Assembly (NCBI RefSeq): GCF_026151205.1
Contig: NC_087075.1
Location: forward strand, 13,343,628-13,407,627
Reading direction: 5' to 3'
Origin: Bolinopsis microptera
Taxonomy: Eukaryota; Ctenophora; Tentaculata; Lobata; Bolinopsidae
DNA: 64,000 nucleotides
In this document: one piece after another, positions 28,196 through 42,753 of the stretch
Layout of the letters: each line of letters begins with the position of its first letter
Numbering within the stretch: position 1 is the stretch's first letter
Notes under the pieces: model-generated
What the model was told of the DNA's origin: nothing
Databases searched by the model: none
The model's input: the letters and a program-made list of their open reading frames with translations, nothing else
Translations under genes and position numbers: made by a program

Positions 28196-28199
28196 TACG

Positions 28200-30428
28200 T
28201 CAACGTCAACATCATTGCAAAAAAACTCGACCAGAAGCGCCTAAGTGTTTATGACATCGAACTGGAGAACAACTCTCTCCTAACAATCTTCCCAGACACC
28301 TACCAGCATATGAACATCAGCTTGCCTAGCGAAGGGATTCATCCAAAGGGCAAAGGAGATTTTAGTATTATCATAACACCTTGCTTTGTCAAAACAGAGA
28401 ACACTCTGGATCTTGCGATTGAAAAGCAACAAACCGAAGTCCTCAATTGTTCAGTAGAACACACCGAAATTGTCCCAAATTCGTCTACCCCTGAAGAGAC
28501 TGTTTCAAATTCCTCCTCTACCCCTGAGAAGACGACACCTACTGATCCTAATGAGGCAGAACAAACTAAGACTGTCTCGAATTCTTGTGTCCCTGTGGAG
28601 ACGTCAGCAAATGACCCCATAGAAGTAGAGCACGCTATGACTGTCCAAAATACTTCTACCCCTGAGAAGACAACAGACACTGATCCCGCAGAAGCAGAAA
28701 AAACTAAAAGTGTCTCAAATACTTCTACCCCTGAGAAGACGACAGCAAATGACCCCGTAGAGAAGGCGACAGTTCCTGACTCCAATAAAGCAGAACAAAC
28801 TAAGACCGCCTCAAATACTTCTACTCCTGAGAAGACGACAGCAATTGAGTCCGCAGAAGCAGATCACGCTATGACTGTCATAAATTCGTCTACCCCTGAG
28901 AAGGCGACAGTTACTGACTCCAATAAAGCAGAACAAACTATAAAGACTGCCTCAAATACTTCTCATCCTGAGGAGACGACAGCTCCTGCCCCACCGAGTG
29001 TGGAGACACAGAGCACCATCGACCCCTCGAAAGAGTCGGCACCGGACGCGGCATTCATTGATACCAAAACTCTTAAACTGTTTCTGAGTAAAGAAACATT
29101 GGTGCAACTTGCTGACCGAAACTCGAAATCTAAAATCATCGAGCTGGTGAAGCTGTGCCACATGAGAGTAGCGCATACTTCAGAACAAAACAGGAAGATG
29201 GTTCTTGACCACCTGTTGGATGCTTCGCAAGGAAAAGTGAAACTCCAGCCGAGTCTAATCGATAAACTTGTCAAGAGACTTAATGATGAAGCAGTCACTG
29301 CCGAACTGATGAACATGGGTCTTGAGGTGCCTCAAAGTGCTAGAATGCGTAAAAACGCCCTTGAAACCTACCTCAATAATGAATTCAGTACTCTTAACTC
29401 AAGTGACTTCAATGAAACCTGTTGCTTGGAAAAAAAGTAGAATCGGAAGCCCTAAGACAAAAAAACAAAACCCAAAGGGAAAAAAAAACAAGAGCAACAA
29501 AAAGACTAGGGCAACCAAGAAAACTAACGACAATGCAGCTAACACTACCGCAGAAACGAGAAATTGTGCTAATGTCACTTCGGATAGCAATGCTATATTA
29601 CATGCCACTCAGCAGAACGGAGAGGATGATAAAATCACTGAAAACACCGATGAACCGTCTGCACAAGACTCAAAGACTGCTAGGTGTTTTCCTACCACAC
29701 CAGAAGAATCTGCTGAACCACATGAACTTGTCCCCAAGAAAGGCAAACCAAAAATCGGAAGAACAGAGGAAAAAAAACCAGACCCAACAAATCAAGCTAC
29801 TGGAAGCCTTGGAATGAGCAATCCAGCATTTGAAAAACCCCTCAAAATACTTGAGAATAGTATTCTCAAGCTCCAAGAAACAACGAGCAATCAACAAGCT
29901 CAGCTGGAACTTTTCAAGAAAGACCAAATAGCCAAAAGCGTCGACGCAGAGTTGTCAGACCTGAAAAGCAAAGTGCTATCTCTCTTAGAGATGATAAAGA
30001 TTCAGCAAAGCACCCTTGACAACCTTGTTAATCAAAGATCGACTCAAGAGCAACAAGTTGGGACTTCCAAAGCTCTACTTACAAATCCACCCAAACAAAT
30101 GATGAACAGAGAAACCCAAACTACAAACCCCCATGATCACAAAATAAATGACAGAGGGACTCATACCGAAACATCATGTCAAACAGATCAACCAGCTTAT
30201 AATACATCACCATCTCTGATTGAAAGCAAAGAAACCCAGACCATCCTTATGATCAGAGAAGCGCCCTCGCCAAACCAGAGATCTACCACTTGTAGGGCTA
30301 CAGCTAACAATATTGAACAACAGCCGGAAAATAAAGAAATTCCTCCCAACAGAGCTGACCAAACTGAAGAAAAAACCCAAACTAGTACTCCATCACAATA
30401 TCGTAATACTTTCAACACTACTATATAA
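28200..30428 (+). pseudogene. Element A upstream ORF: repeat-rich, basic, coiled-coil protein
   Basis: Frame 1 (open from about 28200; first in-frame ATG 28310; to 29440) has an N-terminal segment LDQKRLSVYDIELENNSLL, then nine or so imperfect repeats of STPEKTTANDPxEAEQTKTV (28455-28990), then a helical domain (KLFLSKETLVQLADRNSK ... DHLLDASQGKVKL). After a shift near an A-rich run at 29430, a second frame to 30428 has a Lys-rich basic part (KKQNPKGKKNKSNKKTRATK), a coiled coil (ILKLQETTSNQQAQLELFKK) and a tail with ETQTT / THTETSCQT. I recognise no enzyme. It is like an RNA-binding ORF1 protein of a LINE in composition, but its link to element A rests on position only. Confidence 0.55.
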
Positions 30429-30630
30429 CAAATAATTTGAGGAATGGTATGTTACAACTCCCCCGAAGGGGCGTACTAAGCTAAGGGTCATCTACACTCT
30501 ATTAGGGTCATCTACACTTTACTAGGGTCATCAACTCTGAAGTCCTAATCCCCTCCAAAACAAAACACTTAACGGGAGCCGACCCCAAGTCGGATCTATT
30601 TGGTCAGTATTACTTATATTTGATTTGAGA
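30429..30630 (+). other. Inter-ORF spacer with AGGGTCATCTACACT repeats
   Basis: This 200-bp gap between two ORFs of element A contains three copies of AGGGTCATC(T)ACACT (30485, 30504, 30525) and a short stem-loop GCCGAC-CCCAA-GTCGG near 30579-30594. It could serve re-initiation or be a promoter for the next ORF; no evidence decides. Confidence 0.5.
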
Positions 30631-32685
30631 ATGGCGACAAATACTAGGAAGAATTCAGGTACTCCTAAAACATCTAATAGCTTGTCTCGCAACATTTTAG
30701 CTGAATCTACAGTGGACAATGAAGATCAGGAAAACAGGAAACATAGGGACAAGAAGAAATGTCCATGTCAACGCTCTTTTAACGGTAAAGTTTACCTCAT
30801 TGACTGTTCTAAGTGTCATCAAGAGTGGCATGTGGACTGCCTGTCTATGAAGGGTATAACGAGGTCAGCTATCAACTCCATGGTAGAATGGCTGTGCCCA
30901 TACTGCTTCGTGGCACCAGTATCAACACTGAAGAAACAGAGAGGTGAATTTTGTTACAGCTGCAGGAACACAAGGGCTTTGCAACAGGCCAACTCAGATT
31001 TTGAAGCATCTACAGCTGTTAAGAATCTTGAAACTGTCAGTGCACTCGTGGCATCAGCAAGCTCAGCAGGCTCAGCTCTTGAAAAATTTGACTTCGAACA
31101 GTTCTCTAGGAACCTTGACACTCTCTCCCAGTTCGACGTTCACCTTCAACACCTGCTTCTTAAGGAGAACTCCCTTAATGGGCTAAATAATGAAATAAAG
31201 CTTCATGACAAATCATTAGAATCAATCAATACTAATATTGCCGAACTTCAGAAGGACCTGAAACTTCTGTCATCCAGACCATCTACAGAACCATCCTCAC
31301 CCTCAGCTTCATCTGAGCAGTTTCTGAAGGACATCTCTGAACAGCTCACTGTACTCTGTGCCAATGAGCACACTGCAGCTGCAGGCATAAGTGAATTGAA
31401 ACAATCCTTAGACTCATTACAGCCATTGCATAATCCTGGCCACTGCATTCCTCCCACCCCATTGCATCCAGGACCTCCTACTCAGCACCTTCGTTCTCCA
31501 GTCCCTACAGTCCCTGTGCAGCTACCCAATCATGAGCAGAAACCTGTGGAAATGTTCAAAGATGACTACATTGATCAGCAAACAGCAAATGATTTAGGAG
31601 AACTTTTTGTTAAGGACAGCAGTCACTTCAAAGTTGAGAACGACCGCTCCTGCCTAACATATGGGGAAAGGTATGATTACCCAGGTTCCAAGTCATCTGA
31701 AAAGCCACAGGCAAATACCATCGGTTCTCAAGGAACTCATTGACAAAATCAATAATGAGTTCTGCCAGGGTGATCTACCTCAGATCAACAGCTGCTTAGT
31801 AAATCGGTTTGAAGGAACAGACAGCAAGCTACCTAGACACTCTGATGACGAGGCTACCATCCATCCAGAGTCTAAAATATTCACTGTCTCGCTTGGTTCT
31901 GCATGTCAGGTTTCTTTCTCTGACTCTCACACAGGCACTGATAAGCACAAGCAGCAATGTGACCCACGGTCCTTGTATGTTATGACACGTCATAGCCAAG
32001 CACTGTTCGACCATCGTATTGATGCAGGTGATATAGAAGGGCTACGTTACAGCATCACACTTAGATCCGTGAATTCGTTGAACAGAAATGCCACATGCAT
32101 CATCGGGGATTCAAACACTGGAGGCTTGAAATTTGGTACTGATCCTGCTAAGTCATTCGGCAAGTGGTTACCTGGCAAACGCATCTTCGCTCCGGTCATT
32201 GATAATATAGATCCTTATGTCACGTTGGGGTATAGAAACTGTGTAATATTGTGCGGGGTCAACGACCTCAAAAACGAAGACGTCAAGAACCAACATGATA
32301 TTGAAATTATTTATAACGCATTAGCTTCAAAGATTGCACAGATACAATCTGTCAATCCGTGTATACATGTTTTTGTTTGTCCAGCAATTCCCTCTAAACG
32401 TGCTGACTTAAATAGAAAACTTATATATTTTAACAGTTTGATTCGACGTAGGCTGCTCCCGTCCAATTTTGGTGTCAGTTATGTGGATGGATTTGATGAG
32501 TTCTGTGATAGAGATGGTCTACTTGACCGCTCTCTCTCTCTCGCGACCTCAACAAACACCAAAAACCAGACTTCCTTCACCTCAACTGGAGGGGACTAGC
32601 AAAGTTAGGTCAATTTATTCGTAACACTGTTCTTCTCAGGATTAACGGTGGTATCGACAAAAGGAAGAGGAGGTCCACAAAGTAG
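30631..32685 (+). pseudogene. Element A ORF1: PHD finger - coiled coil - AlkB - SGNH esterase
   Basis: ATG at 30631 after an AT-rich leader. A PHD-type finger (CPCQRS ... CSKCHQEWHVDC ... WLCPYC, residues about 43-92) precedes a long Leu/Ser-rich helical linker and a Pro-rich hinge (PPTPLHPGPPTQH). After a frameshift near 31700 an AlkB-like dioxygenase domain follows: YDYPGS, Fe ligands HSDDE near 31840 and DHRID near 32010, and RYSITLRSV near 32047 (2-oxoglutarate Arg). Then an SGNH hydrolase: IIGDSNTGG (nucleophile Ser) near 32099, ILCGVNDL near 32250. After a second frameshift in a CT run (32530-32542) the catalytic-His block FLHLNWRGLAKLG follows. In other CR1-like LINEs PHD and esterase are known; AlkB-like enzymes demethylate alkylated DNA or RNA bases. 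The order is the same in element B. Confidence 0.88.
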
Positions 32686-32733
32686 ACAGTAGATCCTTCA
32701 GGGATGTGACTGCTGGAAGAGAAACTGGTCCTG

Positions 32734-35700
32734 TTGTTCCTGCTGCTGCTAGTCAGGGTCACGTGGATGGCTACCAACCACATGACTCCCCTCATTAAGG
32801 AGGTATGTCTTGTCTGTTCTAAGAACATAGTCATCGGCCAAACAATAGTTGAATGTTTCCACTGTGACTGCATAATGCACCATAAATGCTATCGCAAATC
32901 CAATACAAATAGCCAATCTAATGAGTTTTACTGTACTCGTTGTATCCATTTAGACAAGGTTAAATACAACCCATTTAAACTACTCACTGACAATGACAAC
33001 GACGACAACAACCTAGACGAATACACAACCAAAATCTCGAATACTTTAAATAATTGTAACTCATACACTGCATCTGACCTTACCAATATTCTCTGCAACC
33101 AAGTAAAGAAACAATCATCTATTCTCTTTCAAAATATTGATGGAAATAAATCAAATTTTGACAACCTTGCCATTGAAACCTGTAGGTACAAAACAAAATT
33201 CTCCGTAATAGGCCTTGCTGAAACCAACACTGGGAAAGAATTAAGCAACCTATTTCAGCTCGACGGTTATAATAGTTACTATCAGGACACAGCACCTAAC
33301 AAACAAAAGGGCACTGGAGTAGCCCTTTATGTTGACGATAGATTAAATGCTACAGTAATTGAAAATATATCACAAGTCAGAGAACATCTAGAAATACTTG
33401 TCTTATCATTAAGTAACGAAGATCAACCTGTTAATGTAGGTGTTTTGTATCGTCCACCAAGTGGCTGTATTTCCCAAGCTCTAGTTGAACTTTCTAACCT
33501 TCTTGATCACATGCCGAAGTTTAGTTATCTAGCTGGAGACTTTAATATCGATCTTCATGATAAAGATAACAAAATGTACAAAAATATGAAGAAATATTGT
33601 TCAGTAAAGGATTTTGTCCGTTAATATCTATTGCTACTCACGAAGTAGGTATGGACATGTAGTTAGAATGCAGACTCTAGACTACCGAGGTTTCTGTTGA
33701 ACTGGAAGCCAAACTATGGAAAGAGGTCAAGGGGCAGACCCCGTAAGAACTGGAAGTCCTGCGTACTCGAAGATGCTGCTAGGTTTACAGGTGTTGAAAA
33801 CATCGACAACGACACAACAGAAGCTTTGGCTACCAACCGAGTACAGTGGAGACATATGTTACGCCGCCAACGCGATGTGTGTGATGCAGGCCACTCCAAC
33901 GACTAGGAGGAGACCTTACCATGTAACATGTATGTAACTCACGAAAAACCAGGCTGTAAAGCATCTTGCATAGACAACATAATTACCAACGACATTGAGA
34001 ATGTTATTACTTCAGGCACCCTAAAAGAACGAATAACTCACCACTCGCCTATTTTTAACATATTTAACTGGAATGTTGAAGTCAACTCTGGAAAAACTCC
34101 TATTAAACAGTATTACGATTTCTGTCAATCAAATGTTAACGGCTTCCTAGTGGATCTTGAAGATGAGCTTAAAACTAAAATAATCCATAACTTTACTGAA
34201 TTCTATTGCATGACACTTACAAAAACTGCATCGAAAAATCGTTTAAACTAGAAACCCCGAAAACCTCTAAGAGAACTGTTAAGGTTAACCCTTGGATAAC
34301 TCCCGGTCTCATTTGCTCAATTAATAATCAGCATAAACTGTACGAAAATTAGGTTGAGATAAGAAATAGAAAATGTAAACTCGGGGAAACTGATAACAAG
34401 GGCGGGATTTGCCAGTGCCCTGAATGCTCACTAAAACGTAGTCGCTACCTTATCTACAAAGAATACAGAAAAGTCCTAAAGAAAACACGTCAAAACAGTG
34501 AAAACAGATTACTTCTCTGGTAAATTTGCAGAAAATAGCGGGAATAGTAAAAAGACCTGGGAACTAATTAATAGTATAAGAGGAAAACGGCGGCGTGAAA
34601 TAAAGCCGCTGTTCACCATAGACAACGTTAAGATAACGAACAGGAGGATCATAGCAAACGAATTCAATAAGTATTTCGTATCATTGGCCTCTGACCTAAA
34701 TACTGCTTACAATGAACTTGGTCAAATGAACATAAACAATCTACCTAGTTTCTATGACTATTTACCGCTCTCAAACACCTCCAGCATTTACATGCATGAC
34801 TGCACAACAGACGAGGTTAGCAAAATCATATCTGAACTTAAGAACGGTAAGGCAAGTGATATTCCTATTCATGTTGTAAAACAGTCCTCAAAAATAGTCA
34901 CTCCTCTACTTACTGTACTGTACAATGAATGTATGAAAGATGGCATATTCCCTGATGACCTTAAGATTGGAAGGATTAGTCCAATTCACAAGAAAGATAA
35001 CCAGGAACTCCTTGAAAATTATAGACCTGTGTCGACACTTGCAGTATTTGGTAAAATATTTGAAAAAATTATATTCAACAGATTATATAGCTTCTTTCAT
35101 TCACAGAATTCCTTGTATGAAAACCAGTATGGATTCCGTAAAAATCATTCGACTAGTTATGCTTTAAATTACTCTTAGCAAAGCTTTTGATACAATCTCA
35201 CATGAAAAGTTACTGCATAAGTTAGAAAATTATGGGATCCGTGGAAATGCAAACAACCTTATAGCAAGTTACCTGTCGAATAGATACCAGTATGTCTCAG
35301 TATTAGGTGAAGACTCTGAGAAACTGCCCGTTGTCTACGGAGTGCCCCAAGGGTCCTGTTTAGGTCCCCAGCTGTTTATCATCTACATAAATGACATCCG
35401 AAACTCATCAATTATAGGAACGTTTATACTATTTGCCGATGACACTAACATATTTATTGAAGAAACATGTGTCAGAAGACTGTACGAAAAGGGAAATGAA
35501 GTTTTAGCATCTGTTTATAAGTATATGAAACTAAACTTATTACATATTAACATTAAGAAATGCTGTTTTATCCACTTTAGACCGTCACGTGCCAAAGAGG
35601 AAGTAGAAAATGACGAGAACATATTAACTTTGAACAATGTTGTCATTAAAAAAGTCCAAGAAGCTAAATTTCTAGGTGTCATTATCGATGATCAACTTAA

Positions 35701-35992
35701 TTGGAAAACTCACACACGGTCACTTAACTCAAAACTTAAATGTGAAGTAGGTAAGTTATGCAGAATACGACACATTGTCCCTAAACAGTATTATAAGGAT
35801 TTATACCATACTTTATTCGAATCACATTTGGGATTTGGAATATCTGTATGGGGTGGTATCAGCAACAACCGACTCGAACCTCTCTTTAAAACACAGAAAA
35901 AGTGTATAGGAATTCTATTTGGGGATAGAGAAGCTTACTTAGAAAATTTAGAACTTGTGCCCGGACACGACCATTTGGTGAGCAAAGACTAG
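32734..35992 (+). pseudogene. Element A ORF2: zinc finger - EEP endonuclease - RT (broken)
   Basis: An N-terminal Cys-rich finger (CLVCSKNIVIGQTIVECFHC, residues about 25-70; MHHKCY; CTRCI) is followed by an EEP nuclease (NIDGNKSNF, GLAETNTGK, GVLYRPPSG, AGDFNIDLH). Positions 33645-33936 are a foreign LINE fragment inserted between ATHE and KPGCKASCIDNII. After a stop near 34250 and frameshifts, RT continues: KNGKASDIP, ENYRPVSTLAVFGKIFEKII near 35010-35070, QYGFRKNHSTSYA. About 20 codons including the catalytic-Asp end of motif A are deleted near 35178, but SKAFDTISHEK remains. GVPQGSCLGPQLF (35341) and FADDTN (35431) follow, then GISVWGG. The sequence shifts frame near 35940 and runs to KKEHSKPL at 36030. 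Confidence 0.85.
33636..33945 (+). mobile_element. 5'-truncated LINE fragment with 9-bp TSD, inside element A
   Basis: ACTCACGAA occurs at 33636-33644 and again at 33937-33945, flanking a 292-bp insert. Removing the insert and one repeat gives a continuous endonuclease frame in element A (ACT CAC GAA AAA CCA GGC). The insert encodes the C-terminus of another LINE polyprotein (RYGHVVRM; KRSRGRPRKNWKSCV; ATNRVQWRHMLR; stop near 33906) and ends with ATGTAACATGTATGTA. This is target-primed insertion of a 3' end. Confidence 0.93.
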
Positions 35993-36030
35993 GTGTGGAC
36001 TTTTACAAAAAAGAACACTCTAAGCCCTTG

Positions 36031-37747
36031 TCCTTTCCTCCATTCTCCCGTGCTGAAGAGTCTGCTGAAGAACTTGAAATCCAGGATAAACCTACAGTAA
36101 AACAACGGGCTTCAAAGAGTGATTGTCCTTGCCGATCAACATCAGATGGTAAGGAATGGAAGTTCAAGTGTACCAGATGTTTTCAGCACTGGCATGCTTC
36201 CTGTTGCAATCTCAAGGGTGCTAACAACATTCAGCACGATACACCTCTTGAAGCTTCTCTGAATATGATTCTCTCAGAATGGCTATGTCCATGGTGTTTC
36301 GATACATCATTCCCCAGACCAGGCTCCAGCATGTCAGCCAAGATGGACAACAACCTAAAGAGCTCTGTAGACTACAGCCAGAACATACAGGCTATATCAG
36401 ATGCTATTTCTAATGCTTTTGGTAACAGTATGCCTACTGTGGAGATTGTATCCCTGGAGACAAGACTGAAGAAGCTGAGTCAAGAGATTCATGAATTTCA
36501 GCAGTCCAGAAGTCCATCTGAAGCACCACCTGCTACAGAAATCCCCTCCCTAAATGCACAGAACCTCCAGTGTGTGATTACCTGGTCGATGTGCTAAGTG
36601 CTGAGATCCTCAAAGAAGTTACAGAGTTTCTCCTGGAGAGCCAAGCTAGTAATAAGTTCATCCCGAAGAATGGAAGACAGGTCCTTAAGTTTGGGGAAGA
36701 CTACTCTTATACTGGTGATTCAGACCCACCCCTATCCCCCACAATCCCAGCACCCCTTGCCTCAGCCATAGACGCAGTTACATCAAAGTGCAGACTGACC
36801 CATAAGCCCAACTCCATCCTAATAAACTACTACCCTCCCTCAGTTGATACCACCACTAGTAGCAAGCTCCCTTTTCACTCTGACGATGAGTCTGAGATTA
36901 TTGCTAACTCAGAAATTGCTACTATCAGCATAGGCGACGTCAGGAAGGTGTGCTTTAAGTGCATCTATGAGACCGGAAACGAAGCCTCAACTGAGTATGT
37001 TCATAGTGTGAGTCCAGAATCTAACTCAGTGTATGTGATGACACGATCGTCACAAGCCTGGTATCGTCACGGTATTGATGAAACAGGTCCAGCTGAAACT
37101 CAGTCTTCTGTGCAGACAGGAAGGTTCTCCATCACACTGAGAACTGTGAGCAAACAGTTTAGCCGGAGCTGCATCATCATGGGCGACTCTAACACCAAGC
37201 CCATCAAGTTCGGTGTCGGTACTGGAACCCTTGGACAGTCCTTCCCAGGTGAACGTGTTAAAGCCAACAAGGTCAGTGCAATAGACCCTAAGCTCTGCAT
37301 TGGTTATAGCAACGTCATCTTAGTTTGTGGGACCAACGATCTACGAGTTGAAAATGTGCAGTCACCTGGTGATATACACCAGCTGGTAGACATTCTCCAC
37401 CTGAAAATCCAGCAACTGTGCCCTAAGGCGAAGTTGTTTGTCACAGCAGTTTTACCGTCTAGACTCCCTAAGATGAATAAAAACATTATGGCATTCAACA
37501 GCTTGGTTGATGAAATGTTGTACTCTAGCTTTAACCAGACTGTATGGCACCTTGGTGTGGCCACTTTTTAGACGGTAAAGGGTTGCTTGCTATGAAACTC
37601 ACGAGAAATGGTGATGAAATCCATCTCGGAGAGCTTGGTATTGCTAAATTTGTGAGATGTCTGAAACAGTGGGTGTATGTGAGGGAGAGACAGGAGAGAG
37701 TAAGACAAAGGAAGGCCACCCGACCAGTGGGAGTTTATCCCACTTAG
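36031..37747 (+). pseudogene. Element B ORF1: PHD - AlkB - SGNH esterase (5'-truncated)
   Basis: Open frames 35995-36597, 36570-37571 and 37544-37747. A PHD finger (CPCRST ... CTRCFQHWHASC ... WLCPWC, 36124-36300), a helical linker (VSLETRLKKLSQEIHEFQQS), then a frameshift near 36575. The AlkB domain has GEDYSYTGDS near 36697, SILINYYPPS near 36817, Fe ligands HSDDES near 36876 and RHGIDE near 37065, and RFSITLRTVS near 37123. The SGNH domain has IIMGDSNTKP near 37178, ILVCGTNDL near 37320, and after another shift near 37555 DGLLAMKLTRNGDEIHLGEL (catalytic His block), ending QRKATRPVGVYPT. Fe and 2-oxoglutarate ligand patterns are the same as in A although the two copies differ widely in other residues, which argues that the domain was kept by selection. 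Confidence 0.88.
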
Positions 37748-37753
37748 TCTATC

Positions 37754-40700
37754 ATGATTATGAAACTTATTAAAGATGTGTGCGACCCCTGTAGTAAATA
37801 CATTAATATTGGCCAGCCACTCTTAGAATGTGAAAATTGCAGCAAAGTTGTTCATACTAAGTGCTTCAGATCCGCGAAATTTACAAGCAAAAACGGTCTA
37901 TGGATGTGCAGTGATTGCTGTAGTACAATAGAAGATAGGTATTGCCCATTTCCAAGCAGCCAAAGATATGATGATTCAGATAAATTCTATGATACAAACA
38001 ACCAGGAAGATGTCACCATAGCTAAATTCTCTTCAATACTTGAAGACTGTAAGCGTTACACAAAACAAGAACTAGCAAACTCAATCAGCAAACTTTTTCC
38101 TGAGAAAAATAAAAATTCTGCTTATCTGCCCGCTCTGTTTTGCAATATAGATGGGTTTGCTAGTAATTTTGACAGCTTTTTAATAGAACATAAGACCCTC
38201 CCGTGTAATTTTGATGTCATTGGATTGGCTGAGACCAACATCGATCCAAGCCAACAAGGCTTATACAAATCCCCTCCTATACAACATTTTGTCAAGTACC
38301 ATTCCCTGATAAGAAAAAAGGAACAGGAGTATCCTTATATGTCTCTGATCGCCTGAATGCTGTAGTAATCGAAAATCTATCTCACTGTACAAAAGATATT
38401 GAGTGCTTATTTGTTGAAATTACTCTTAGCTCGGGTGATAAACTGACATATGGGGTTGCTTATCGTCCTCCAAATGGCTGTAGTGAGACCTTTTGTCAAA
38501 CTCTTGAGGATATATCTAAGCAGTTGGCTGGTAAAAAGTTCCATATTCTTGGCGATTTTAACTCTAACCTCCTCAATGTACAAACCTCCAGCCAGCTATT
38601 TGAGGACACGTTACTTCGTAACAATATGTATCCTACTATATCACTTGCTACCCACTTCCGTCCTAACTGTAAAAACTCATGTATTGACAATATCCTCACA
38701 TCAGAGATAGATCATGTACTTCTCTCCGGTGTATTGAATGATAGGATTGGTGACCATGCCTTTATATTCACCTTCACGTCAATTCCTACCGAAAACAGTA
38801 CTGAAAAACTTAAACATGTTCGCTACTATGATTATTCAAGTTCCAAACTCACTAATTTTGTTAATGAACTCGAGGTGAAGGTGAATGACTTGACTCCCTC
38901 GGTAAACTTCAATGAGTTCTTGGACTGCTTCAATGAAACACTTGATAAACACTGTAAGCTTGATGTACCAAAAGTTACCAAAAGGACTCCCAAACTCAAC
39001 CCGTGGATTACCGATGGAATCATTGTCTCAGTTGAAAGAAAACATGAACTCTGTAGAGACTGGTCAAGCACTGTAACAAATAGAAACCCTGAGGGTAATG
39101 TACTGCTATATAAAGTCTTCAGTGACTACCGAAGAATGCTTAAAAGTATTATCAAGGTCGCCAAACGATCGTACTACTGCAATGAAATCCATAAAAATAT
39201 AGAAAACAGCAAAAAAACGTGGCAGATAATCAATGAGCTCAGGGGCAAGAAAAAGAAGCAAACTAAGCCTCCCTTTATCATAAACAACGAACGAATCATG
39301 AATCGTAGAGTCATAGCCAATGGATTCAACTCTTACTTTGTTTCTATTGCCCCTAAGCTCAATGAAACACTTAGTAGCAGTGAGGCCTCTGGTTTACCAA
39401 TTCTCCCTATAAAAACATTCTATGATTTCCTTGGAAAGACTAATGAAAAATCGATTATGTTAGAAGACTGTACACCTTATGAGATAACGGAAATAATAAA
39501 AGGATTTGAAAATGGAAAAGCAAGTGATATTCCTGTTAGTGTAATCAAAAGATCATCTCACGTAATTACACCGATCCTTAGTCGATACATCAACATCTTA
39601 ATGTCTAATGGCACGTTCCCCGACGTTCTAAAGACTGTAGAATAACTCCTGTATTTAAGAGGGAAACCCTGAAGAGATAGAAAACTACCGCCCAATCTCT
39701 ACTCTCTCTATATTTGGTAAAATCTTTGAAAAGATCATTTACTCAAGAATATATTCGTTTGCTAGCTCACAGGGTATAATATCTAAAACACAATTTGGCT
39801 TCAGGCAGTCACACTCTACTTCACATGCAGTTAATCACTCAGTAAACCTTATAACTGAATCTCTAAAACTTAAGCATCATGTCTTAGGCATATTCATAGA
39901 CCTTAGCAAAGCTTTTGATACAATAGATCATGGTACATTACTTGTCAAATTACAGGGCTATGGGATACGTGGGGTGGCAAATGATCTTATAAAAAGTTAC
40001 TTAACAAATAGATCACAATATACTGAAGTTGTTGGTGAGAAATCTGACGCCTTGAAAATACAGTTTGGAGTCCCTCAGGGTTCGATTCTTGGACCTCTCT
40101 TATTTCTCCTATATATTAATGATATCGCCAACAGCTCCAGTTTGGGATCATTTGTCACCTTCGCTGATGACACCAATATATTTGTGACTGGGAAATCTAA
40201 AAAGGAGGCATATATGCGTGGTAATTCTCTTTTAGCTAGTTTATATTCCTACATGCGAGCAAACAAACTCCATGTCAACTTGTCTAAATGCTGTTTCATT
40301 CACTTTAAACCAGCATCGTCCTCCCAGACTGACAATAATTCTGAATATACTCTAACCATTGATAACTTTCCAATAAAACAAGTTGCATCTGCTAAGTTTC
40401 TGGGAGTCGTCATCGATGAAAAGCTAACCTGGGAAGAACATATAAAATCACTTAGGCGTTCTCTCAGCCATGCAACATCAACTCTCTGCCGCCTACGCTG
40501 CTCCCTCCCAGATTTCTTACACCGCCAGTTGTATTACACTCTATTTGAATCACACCTCTCCTATTGTATCACGGTTTGGGGTGGGGCAGCCAAAACTCGT
40601 ATAAGTTCTGTATTCAAAGCACAAAAATATTGTCTCAGGGTACTGTTTGGCGACAGGGAGGCATACCTAGATAAATTTAAGACCTGTGCTCGTGCTCGAC

Positions 40701-41146
40701 CGTTTGGCAACCAAAATCTGAACAAAAAATTTTTCTTGAAAGAGCACACGAAACCTTTGTTCAAGGAACACGGAATACTTGCCGTCCAAAACCTGTACAC
40801 TTACCATTGTTTCCTTGAGCTCTATAAAATCATGAAATTCCGTGCTCCGATTTCCCTCCATGAAAATTTCACCTGCTCAAGTAGGAAACCCACCCTTATA
40901 CTAAGCCAAGCAGACCCCCCTGACAACTTCAATAGCAGAACGACTCGTATTTGGAACGTAATTGTGCCTAAGCTTGGTATACGTGACTACTGTCTAAGTG
41001 TGGCCTGCCTGAAGTCTAGGATGAAGCAATCACTGCTCGTCAACCAGCATAACCATGCTGATCTTGATTGGACAAACAAAGATTTCGAATGCTCTAATAT
41101 AAATTTTGACATTAAGTCCACCCTAGGGTCCACACATCCAAAATGA
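37754..41146 (+). pseudogene. Element B ORF2: zinc finger - EEP endonuclease - RT (frameshifted)
   Basis: ATG at 37754. Cys-rich finger CDPCSKYINIGQPLLEC ... HTKCF ... CSDCC (37787-37922); EEP nuclease FCNIDGFASNFDSFL, GLAETNI, then after a shift near 38330 VAYRPPNG and LGDFNSNLL near 38550, CIDNIL, GDHAFIF. Linker and RT: PWITDGII, NGKASDIPVSVIK, a frameshift near 39640, NYRPIS-type block near 39690, FGFRQSHSTSHA near 39800, IDLSKAFDTIDH near 39895, GVPQGSILGPLLF near 40067, FADDTN near 40160, GVVIDEKLTWEEH, then CITVWGGAAK and a long C-terminal part to TGA at 41144-41146. Only frameshifts prevent this from being a full RT. The C-terminal part ends WTNKDFECSNIN, the equivalent of WCELNF in element A and WCDKNF in copy C. 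Confidence 0.88.
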
Positions 41147-42366
41147 TTATCTTGAAATTGAAAATTAGCTGGGTGTGCATTTTCCTTTGTCTTACTAACG
41201 TGTGTGAGCGCAGTGTAGTGAGAAAGTGTTTTTAACAGATTTATTATTAGACTTAGGATTATGATTTTTAATATATTACATTGATATAAGATTTATTTTT
41301 GATAGGTACTTAATAAAGTTGATGAATTTCCCTCCCTATTAAAATTTTAAACCCATTTAGTGAAAATTGATAAACGAAGATCTAGATATTGATACATATT
41401 ATAACCAACATTGCTTATATTCTGCCTTGTAAACAAAGAGCAAATCTTCTTAATGCCTTCTTCCTGTCCTAAAACTAAAACTTCATCCTATTAAAGTAAA
41501 GGCCAGTTGTTACCACAAGCTATTATACCGTCCCTCTCAAAAACATGCCTCAGCCTCCATCAAAAACAATTTTAGTTTTCAGTCCTTCTACGTACGGAAT
41601 CAAACGTTAATAAGCTTGCAGCTTCCGATGAAAATGTATTCAACTTTGTGTCATGCTTGAATTGGTTTTGGACCTCTTCAATGCTTTTAATTTATTTATT
41701 ATTGTTATTTGGTATTATGAGCTGATATGTATATATACATACGGTATCTAAAATTAAGCGTATAGCGAGCATATTTAACAATTTTTAAGCAATAATGTAT
41801 TGCGAGCAGCTGTAACTTAAATATCGCATAAAAATCATATAATTATAACACAAAACTAAAATTTTATTGGAATCTAGGTTAAACTAAGATAAAATTAATA
41901 TCAGCCCCTTCGCCACTCTCAGCAGTCAACCAGGGCTCATAAAAGCTTAACAGCGCCTGGGTCCGTTCACCAACTGTGCTAATGTGAGTGGCGGTGTGGT
42001 AAATGGTAAAACCCATTTTAACAGCGTGAATATTTCTCAAATATAAGCGCGCTAGCTGCTAGCATACTTGTATCATTTAATTTTTAATCAAATTTATTCG
42101 GATATATATTTATTGATTATGTATTGAATTGGTGATAAATAATAAAATTGTCTTTTCTCAAAAAATTGTCTTTTCTCTAGTTTCCAAAAATCTACCGAGC
42201 TAGTGTTCTGGTGTGCACAAAAGCCCCTAAGCCCGTGCATTCCTTGCCCCGCTAGCTGCCAGTCCTTGACAAACTTCCAATAGCAAAGATCAACTAGTCA
42301 TTTACAAATTGAGCACTATACAATTTTAATTGTTTTAAATATTTGACTTTGTAAAATGAGCTAAAA
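41147..42366 (+). other. Element B 3' UTR
   Basis: About 1.25 kb of AT-rich sequence with no ORF. AAAATTGTCTTTTCTC occurs twice at 42146-42177 and, once, at 15504-15519 behind the decayed LINE. It leads straight into the two terminal 17-bp repeats. Confidence 0.6.
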
Positions 42367-42405
42367 CATTGATTTATTAGTTTCATTGATTTATTAGTTT
42401 CATTG

Positions 42406-42753
42406 TTTAAGAATCAGAAATTGTTAACTGTTCACAACCTGTACAAGTACACTTGTCTCTTAGAACTATTCAAAATTAATAAGTTAGAGGAACCATTATC
42501 ACTGTACTCATCATTTAACAGGTCACCACGACGAGAGGATTATTTCATCACATCACAACCATCCTCACAATTCATCTACCAATCATCCTACATGTGGAAC
42601 AGCTGTCGACAAACATCAAGTAAGATAAGTTTTAATACTCCGACAAACGGGTTTAAGAATACATTGAAAATTGCTTTACAAGAATTGCAATTCAAGCATG
42701 ATACACTTGATTGGTGTGAGCTTAATTTTGCCACGAATAAGCTCAAGTTTTGA
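42406..42753 (+). pseudogene. Element A ORF2 C-terminal end
   Basis: Continuation of element A RT from 36030: FKNQKLLTVHNLYKY, LLELFKINKLEEPLSLYSSF, FIYQSSYMWNSC, DTLDWCELNFATNKLKF and stop at 42751-42753. It aligns along its length to element B (FKEHGILAVQNLYTYHC, LELYKIMKFRAPISL) and to copy C, which proves that the intervening 6.4 kb is an insertion. Confidence 0.9.

Follow-up and report, generated by a model that had tools for sequence, protein, structure and literature searches.

Two nested LINEs and the AlkB domain of their ORF1

The window, a stretch of 64,000 nucleotides from the ctenophore Bolinopsis microptera (contig NC_087075.1, positions 13,343,628 to 13,407,627 of the forward strand), carries two long interspersed nuclear elements (LINEs), here called A and B. 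A distinctive characteristic of both is that the first open reading frame (ORF1) contains a domain of the AlkB family of Fe(II)/2-oxoglutarate dioxygenases, placed after a PHD finger and before an SGNH esterase. The initial annotation, made from the letters alone, had proposed this order, and Pfam bears it out. The AlkB model PF13532 matches A at 31661-32596 (52.4 bits) and B at 36570-37568 (70.5 bits), both above the curated cut-off of 31.2 bits; the PHD and SGNH domains are recognisable in both elements, with all four scores below the curated cut-offs. In L032, a 99%-identical relative of B, Pfam recognises neither PHD nor SGNH, although the esterase motifs are present. The metal-ligand and 2-oxoglutarate motifs are as first quoted, namely HSDDE, FDHRID, and RYSITLR in A and HSDDES, YRHGID, and RFSITLR in B.

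In both elements ORF2 runs from a zinc finger through an EEP endonuclease to a reverse transcriptase (RT), again as annotated at the outset. Pfam identifies all three domains in A, the zinc finger being PHD/C1-like. In B it identifies the zinc finger and the RT, and the EEP-side stretch is recognised by similarity to the ORF2 of L016. Only the architecture (PHD finger, esterase) points to the CR1 or L2 clade and so to CR1-like elements.

LINE A begins at about 30,404 (L017 is another genomic copy of it), and B sits inside ORF2 of A from about 36,030 to about 42,404, both ends being approximate. The nesting, which had been claimed before, is shown by the identity of B to L032 from about 36,030 and by the resumption of ORF2 of A at about 42,404; the two A/B junctions share a TTG. 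Since the alignment of B with L032 (window 36030-37710) starts at L032:760, inside ORF1, B is 5'-truncated within its own ORF1. The 3' end of B was placed from the resumption of A and from a two-copy tail repeat: two copies of a 17-bp unit (window 42371-42404) close B directly before A resumes. CR1/L2 LINEs end in short tandem tails, and the 17-bp tail of B resembles these. The extent first given for the pair (28196-41146) opens about 2.2 kb too early, on another repeat (28,310-30,428), and closes before the end of A, which runs on to 42,753. Both copies are broken, with disrupted frames that include both ORF2s, and a frameshift near 31.7 kb cuts the AlkB domain of A in two.

Features of LINEs A and B in the window. 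The A1 profile was built from the alignment A1 of 21 transposon AlkB domains; "below" means below the curated Pfam cut-off.
Feature	Position	Strand	Evidence
LINE A, 5' part (ORF1 and most of ORF2), broken into by B, continuing at about 42404	30404..36029	+	L017 identity 99.15% (30404-32749), ORFs
A ORF1 PHD finger	30760..30906	+	PF00628 E=0.0011, aa 46-94 of ORF 30625-31743, below
A AlkB N-terminal part, upstream frame	31525..31713	+	A1 profile positions 2-65, E=5e-14
A AlkB catalytic part (HSDDE, DHRID, RYSITLR)	31694..32089	+	PF13532 E=1.1e-13; A1 profile E=1.7e-51
A SGNH esterase	32234..32530	+	PF13472 E=4.4e-5, below; GDSNT, GVNDL, DFLHL in close relative L017
A ORF2 zinc finger (PHD/C1/RING-like) and EEP endonuclease	32797..33567	+	PF14446 E=0.0027, PF00628 E=0.0028, PF03372 E=0.001, all below
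A ORF2 reverse transcriptase, broken frames	34498..35992	+	PF00078 E=5.5e-7 (34498-35175); 35342-35992 55% to L016 ORF2
LINE B, in ORF2 of A, 5'-truncated within ORF1	36030..42404	+	L032 identity 99.2%; ends approximate
B ORF1 PHD-like finger	36130..36216	+	PF23004 (PHD variant) E=0.01, below
B AlkB (HSDDES, RHGID, RFSITLR)	36558..37163	+	PF13532 E=2.9e-19; A1 profile E=7.7e-57
B SGNH esterase, weak by Pfam	37260..37466	+	PF13472 E=0.027, below; GDSNT, GTNDL in close relative L032
B ORF2 zinc finger	37781..37918	+	PF00130 E=1.5e-5, PF00628 E=2.4e-5
B ORF2 endonuclease-side stretch and RT, broken frames	38524..41146	+	50-57% to L016 ORF2; PF00078 E=6.3e-15 (39974-41143)
A ORF2 C-terminal end, resumed	42403..42753	+	33-47% to C-terminal ends of related ORF2s; sequence

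Spread, conservation, and selection of the LINE AlkB

The survey covered one host genome (264.65 Mb in 232 contigs), and several of its counts, drawn from about 150 listed matches, are lower bounds. The domain recurs in other copies across this genome. A search with PF13532 gave 587 first-look candidates, 150 of them scored, and at least 151 matches; those listed pass the cut-off, and three of the matches are ALKBH2/3-like exons of the host (L037, L038, L039). The AlkB-SGNH parts of A and B find at least 127 and at least 122 matches, respectively. The A family has ten further copies whose 95-98% identity spans at least query residues 16-297; all are free of internal stops, and eight lie in frames of 698-751 amino acids (aa). 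In the B family, 16 copies are 98-99% identical across the whole query; an internal stop occurs in one, and 14 lie in 697-aa frames. Four B copies on three contigs have the identical score of 735.7 bits, which suggests recent spread. In one Pfam set, PF13532 was above its cut-off in 10 of 10 ORF1s. EEP and RT domains in an ORF2 downstream of ORF1 were identified by Pfam in L001, L003, and L006, and further ORF2s by similarity.

The 42 complete AlkB domains that were read form 22 single-linkage clusters at 60% identity, one Helitron-type and 21 with a LINE-type ORF1, and for some of the latter (e.g. L024, L029) ORF1 alone was taken in. The residues for Fe(II) and 2-oxoglutarate (two His, Asp, Glu, both Arg, and Ser) are kept in all 42, a count that is partly circular for the 36 domains located by a motif filter; the other six (L042-L047) were unfiltered and keep these residues too. 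The filter failed one of 37 ORFs (L020), whose excised stretch had ended early. In the 21 rows of A1, mean column identity is 34% and 13 columns are invariant, among them H106, D108, E110, H164, R175, S177, T179, and R181.

To test for bias from the listing, six loci outside the AlkB lists were added, each with a long open ORF2. AlkB lies in one clean frame in L060 and L061 and in broken frames in L058, L059, and L062, and none was found in the 1 kb examined at L063. L058, L059, and L062 lie upstream of open ORF2s at C6:8436807, C7:15724987, and C3:4579667.

The ratio of nonsynonymous to synonymous substitution rates (dN/dS) was estimated by two methods, pairwise maximum likelihood for 24 pairs and a second method with bootstrap for eight non-overlapping pairs. 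By maximum likelihood, dN/dS is 0.012-0.32 (p at most 2.6e-4) in the 18 pairs with AlkB dS above 0.2, dS being saturated in the most distant ones; dN/dS=1 is rejected at the 0.05 level in two of the six pairs that are closer. The second method places AlkB far below 1, at 0.065, 0.084, 0.113, 0.130, 0.157, 0.170, 0.171, and 0.197 (seven LINE pairs and one Helitron pair), with bootstrap upper 95% bounds of 0.145 to 0.328. The Helitron pair L004/L014 serves as an internal control, with 0.14-0.17 in AlkB against 1.0-1.1 in a neutral linker directly after it. Judged by these comparisons of sequences, AlkB is under strong purifying selection, and the reading of it as a real ORF1 constituent, maintained by selection in many of the LINE families here, is supported. 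None of the three outcomes that would have contradicted the initial annotation (no significant AlkB match, no AlkB in other copies, dN/dS near 1) came about.

Possible exchange of modules among LINEs and Helitrons

The SGNH esterase of the window-type families shows GDSNT, G-x-ND, and D-x-L-HL, that is, the nucleophile serine and the D-x-x-H block; SSS replaces GDS in L001, L007, and L011. Pfam leaves the esterase unrecognised in L006, L012, L013, L032, and L029 and sees a PHD finger in only part of the AlkB-bearing ORF1s (L006, L008, L012, L016, L017, L029). Six further ORF1s (L042-L047) were chosen for an SGNH match without a listed PF13532 match. The transposon profile finds AlkB in all six at E=5e-23 or better (12-protein search) and Pfam in two, above the PF13532 cut-off; L043, L045, L046, and L047 do not reach that cut-off and are recognised by the profile alone. 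The idea of a group of LINEs with the esterase and without AlkB was dropped for this reason.

In a tree of ORF2s from 15 AlkB carriers and six non-carriers, the distribution of AlkB requires three changes of state, and strongly supported branches force two of these; support is by Shimodaira-Hasegawa-like approximate likelihood ratio test (SH-aLRT) only, and long branches are flagged. The AlkB and ORF2 trees have in common the groupings of L001 with L011, of L042-L047, and of L003 with L013, and they place L015 differently. The association of AlkB with LINEs looks old because the ORF2s of different groups share only about 20-39% identity.

Exchange of ORF1 could be another route by which AlkB spreads among LINEs. 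L001 and L007 share 97.7% DNA identity over ORF2 and the 3' part (L001:3472-6934) and about 55% protein identity in ORF1, an apparent case of one ORF2 with different ORF1s, swapped near the ORF1/ORF2 junction. Between L030 and L031, 89% DNA identity starts sharply just before AlkB (L030:1212, L031:1247), the PHD-side N-termini having 44% protein identity; AlkB seems to begin at a module boundary. Within one ORF1 compared between L022 and L025, dS goes from about 0.23 in AlkB to about 3.6 in SGNH, a jump pointing to recombination between families. At L010:3747-6755, an A-like LINE insertion has its AlkB-SGNH part in frame with ORF2 of another LINE, giving an open fusion of 1003 aa.

Helitrons are a different class of element that transposes by a rolling circle through a single-stranded DNA intermediate, with no RNA template. 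Three Helitron-type loci (L004, L009, L014) have strong PF13532 matches in single frames of 2,459-3,388 aa, in the order SGNH, AlkB, DUF6570, and Helitron Rep (Helitron_like_N). SGNH precedes AlkB here, the reverse of the LINE order. The continuation of the frame, examined for L004 alone, holds a PIF1 helicase (L057, E=3.2e-22). For seven of the 41 genomic Rep matches, comparison of two match lists by eye shows a listed AlkB on the same strand no more than 5 kb upstream; the other Rep matches include fragments, and unlisted AlkBs are possible among them. A six-sequence search with the LINE esterase profile gives E=6e-11 to 1e-14 for the four Helitron-type esterases. The four Helitron-type rows of the AlkB tree form one clade (100/99) among LINE rows, and a LINE-only clade that excludes them is not rejected (approximately unbiased (AU) test, p=0.067). 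An exchange of AlkB between LINEs and Helitrons is suggested by these relations. We put forward tentatively, at rather less than even confidence, that AlkB and SGNH may be a portable module passed between the two classes, giving an element its own direct-reversal repair of the template to be copied.

Relation to ALKBH enzymes and proposed function

Searched against the PDB, the profile of the 21 transposon AlkBs matches ALKBH3 (1.8e-29) and ALKBH2 (3.6e-26) best, followed by ALKBH8 (2.8e-16) and E. coli AlkB (4e-11), with lower matches to a DNA N6-methyladenine demethylase (1e-5), ALKBH5 (5.5e-4), ALKBH1 (3e-3), and ALKBH7 (0.014). The transposon domains and human ALKBH3/ALKBH2 have a common HxDxE...H...R core, N-S/F-x-L region, and Y-x-Y hairpin region. 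They differ in that human RVNLTFR stands against transposon R-x-S-x-T/S-x-R and that the transposon AlkB is fused to other domains. In a tree whose remaining rows are ALKBH2/3 only, 30 transposon AlkBs lie on one side and five ALKBH2/3 rows on the other with support of 89/84, short of the star given by the tool, so that a single transposon group apart from ALKBH2/3 has moderate support. The possibility of a host gene misread as a transposon was rejected, the host ALKBH2- and ALKBH3-like exons having been found separately and lying opposite the transposon rows in the tree. Scans of prokaryote genomes (one) and of IMG/VR viral contigs (two), each with a single-domain query, found no relatives outside the host. 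AlphaFold models of the two window copies reached a predicted local distance difference test (pLDDT) score of 49, and Foldseek with this weak model gave ALKBH5 first (1.8e-6), then ALKBH2, ALKBH8, ALKBH3, and AlkB, a ranking that weakly supports the AlkB fold and nothing finer.

ALKBH3 and ALKBH2 reverse 1-methyladenine and 3-methylcytosine, and ALKBH3 is described as acting on single-stranded DNA and RNA (PMC5304225). It is proposed that the transposon AlkB, an ALKBH2/3-type dioxygenase set before the SGNH esterase and, in some families, after a PHD finger, would be a functional oxidative dealkylase working in cis, with the single-stranded nucleic acid of its own element as substrate. In LINEs it would act on the RNA template that the ORF1 protein holds and on the first cDNA strand, and in Helitrons on the single-stranded rolling-circle DNA. 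The adducts removed would be N-alkyl groups that block copying, such as 1-methyladenine and 3-methylcytosine. The esterase might localise the particle or anchor it to membranes, by analogy with the proposal for zebrafish ZfL2-1, and AlkB may also supply a contact with nucleic acid otherwise missing from esterase-type ORF1 proteins. Enzymatic activity of these domains is plausible, since the AlkB protein of an orchid long terminal repeat (LTR) retrotransposon demethylates RNA in vitro, according to the account of it in PMC9289625. As LINE RNA and Helitron DNA are both single-stranded intermediates that are to be copied, direct-reversal repair in cis is favoured over removal of host regulatory marks, and we give it an even chance of being correct. 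The role suggested in the initial annotation, in which the element would erase alkyl marks from its own RNA or cDNA or counter host modification, is compatible with the ALKBH2/3-type sequence and is partly supported. The AlkB-SGNH pair occurs also in Helitrons, beyond the window and without an RNA template, and an explanation confined to RNA would need a second story for them.

Several results weigh against a selected repair function of this kind. AlkB is absent from six LINEs (L048-L053) chosen by their endonuclease and with ORF2 frames over 1000 aa: with the AlkB profile, none of their ORF1 frames scores better than E=0.07, and translation in six frames gives no match at E 0.01. In L048 and L051 the ORF1 frames are short, perhaps incomplete, and Pfam finds neither SGNH nor AlkB in the ORF1s of L049, L050, L052, and L053. 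AlkB is therefore not required for LINE spread in this genome. Open ORF2s beside a broken ORF1 AlkB may mean that ORF1 is supplied in trans. Four of the six close maximum-likelihood pairs fail to reject dN/dS=1 (p 0.12-0.24), one of them with an unbounded estimate, and the linker after AlkB is not neutral (0.60) in the Helitron-type pair L005/L014. Window B alone, compared with solved proteins, matches ALKBH8 best (6.8e-4) and ALKBH2 at 0.12, the weak structural model has ALKBH5 as its first match, and closeness to ALKBH3 leaves the substrate unfixed.

A second reading is counter-defence, in which AlkB would erase regulatory methyl marks placed by the host (N6-methyladenosine (m6A) on RNA, 6mA or others on DNA) and the element would thereby escape silencing or sequestration. 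In vitro, the orchid Gypsy analogue removes m6A, and it is interpreted in this way in PMC9289625; the PHD finger of some of these ORF1s is a chromatin-reader type of domain, and both the first Foldseek match and the DNA N6-methyladenine demethylase among the profile matches are in line with it. However, the profile is far nearer to ALKBH3 and ALKBH2 than to ALKBH5, and chromatin marks offer no obvious explanation for retention in LINEs plus Helitrons. Counter-defence is possible but somewhat unlikely.

It is improbable that the AlkB fold serves the ORF1 protein chiefly in binding nucleic acid or in assembly, with catalysis secondary. Esterase-type ORF1 proteins are described as having no known RNA-binding domain (PMC3905857), a gap that AlkB could fill, and AlkB was present in all six sampled esterase-bearing ORF1s; yet the cofactor residues are kept in all 42 domains despite the low identity within A1, whereas some of the 22 clusters should have lost them if the domain did no more than bind. 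Enzymes of the ALKBH4/7 type are thought to modify proteins, and hydroxylation or demethylation of a protein such as the ORF1 protein or histones at the target would fit the PHD finger of some ORF1s, and sequence alone does not give the substrate. This is very improbable in view of the weak ALKBH7 match, the best matches being nucleic-acid dealkylases, as they are in the fold search with the weak model. Transposons do carry captured pieces of host genes and both window copies are broken, but a chance motif or a host ALKBH fragment carried passively by a few copies is ruled out for practical purposes by the Pfam scores, by the occurrence in 21 LINE-type ORF1 clusters and Helitrons, mostly in open frames, by the dN/dS values (0.065-0.197), and by the separation from the host exons in the tree (89/84).

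The nearest known systems combine some of these features. Type IV (esterase-type) ORF1s of CR1/L2 LINEs such as zebrafish ZfL2-1 likewise belong to elements with two ORFs, an EEP-RT ORF2, and an SGNH domain in ORF1, and ORF1s of CR1/L2 LINEs are known to include PHD fingers (PMC3905857, PMC4120745). Unlike ORF1s of the ZfL2-1 type, those described here have AlkB before the esterase; neither main text mentions AlkB or an oxygenase. The orchid (Phalaenopsis) Ty3/Gypsy element likewise encodes an AlkB-family protein with conserved cofactor residues. However, it is an LTR element with a separate ALKBH5-like ORF nearest to RNA m6A demethylases (PMC9289625), whereas the present AlkBs are ALKBH3/2-like domains within a LINE ORF1 or Helitron protein and extend over 21 LINE-type clusters. 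Plant RNA viruses (Alphaflexiviridae, Betaflexiviridae, Closteroviridae) also carry AlkB, for which repair of their own RNA has been postulated (as reported in PMC9289625); these are replicating genetic elements with a different replication, likened here by description and not by sequence. In bdelloid rotifers, LTR and Penelope-like elements have GDSL esterase ORFs, a further case of esterases across unlike retroelements, and the LINE esterases were judged to have been captured independently of the bdelloid ones (PMC5408684, main text, which does not mention AlkB).

AlkB in transposable elements as such is already known from the orchid Gypsy element. Neither AlkB in a LINE ORF1, with the breadth seen here, nor AlkB in a Helitron was found among the papers listed by searches of the open-access full-text literature; subscription papers, bioRxiv, and Repbase were largely outside that scope, and such cases may be described there. 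Transposons are usually viewed as targets of nucleic-acid modification and not as makers of erasers. A selected, intact AlkB in LINEs and Helitrons would mean that alkylation or methylation of the template may limit their spread enough to be fought. The co-occurrence of AlkB and esterase in both element classes makes the partner of the enigmatic ORF1 esterase testable, and the elements offer a natural set of diverse ALKBH3/2-like enzymes.

Two minor observations concern other sequences. The ligand-binding family of ionotropic glutamate receptors has 32 matches in the host genome, ten of which are in single frames of at least 900 aa and are apparently intron-poor. Among solved proteins, one glutamate receptor (L055) matches ML032222a iGluR best (1.2e-61), before kainate receptor 2 (1.6e-54), whereas for two others (L054, L056) that chain is not among the best 60 rows. 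ML032222a comes from the ctenophore Mnemiopsis, which agrees with a ctenophore host, as do 13 chromosomes. The stretch upstream of LINE A (window 28310-30428) is a fragment of another repeat family with 25 matches in the genome. Its N-terminal part is repetitive, of STPEKTT type, and it has no Pfam match at E 0.1; two 98%-identical copies lie within frames of 1240 and 1406 aa, and distant relatives sit in frames of up to 2331 aa.

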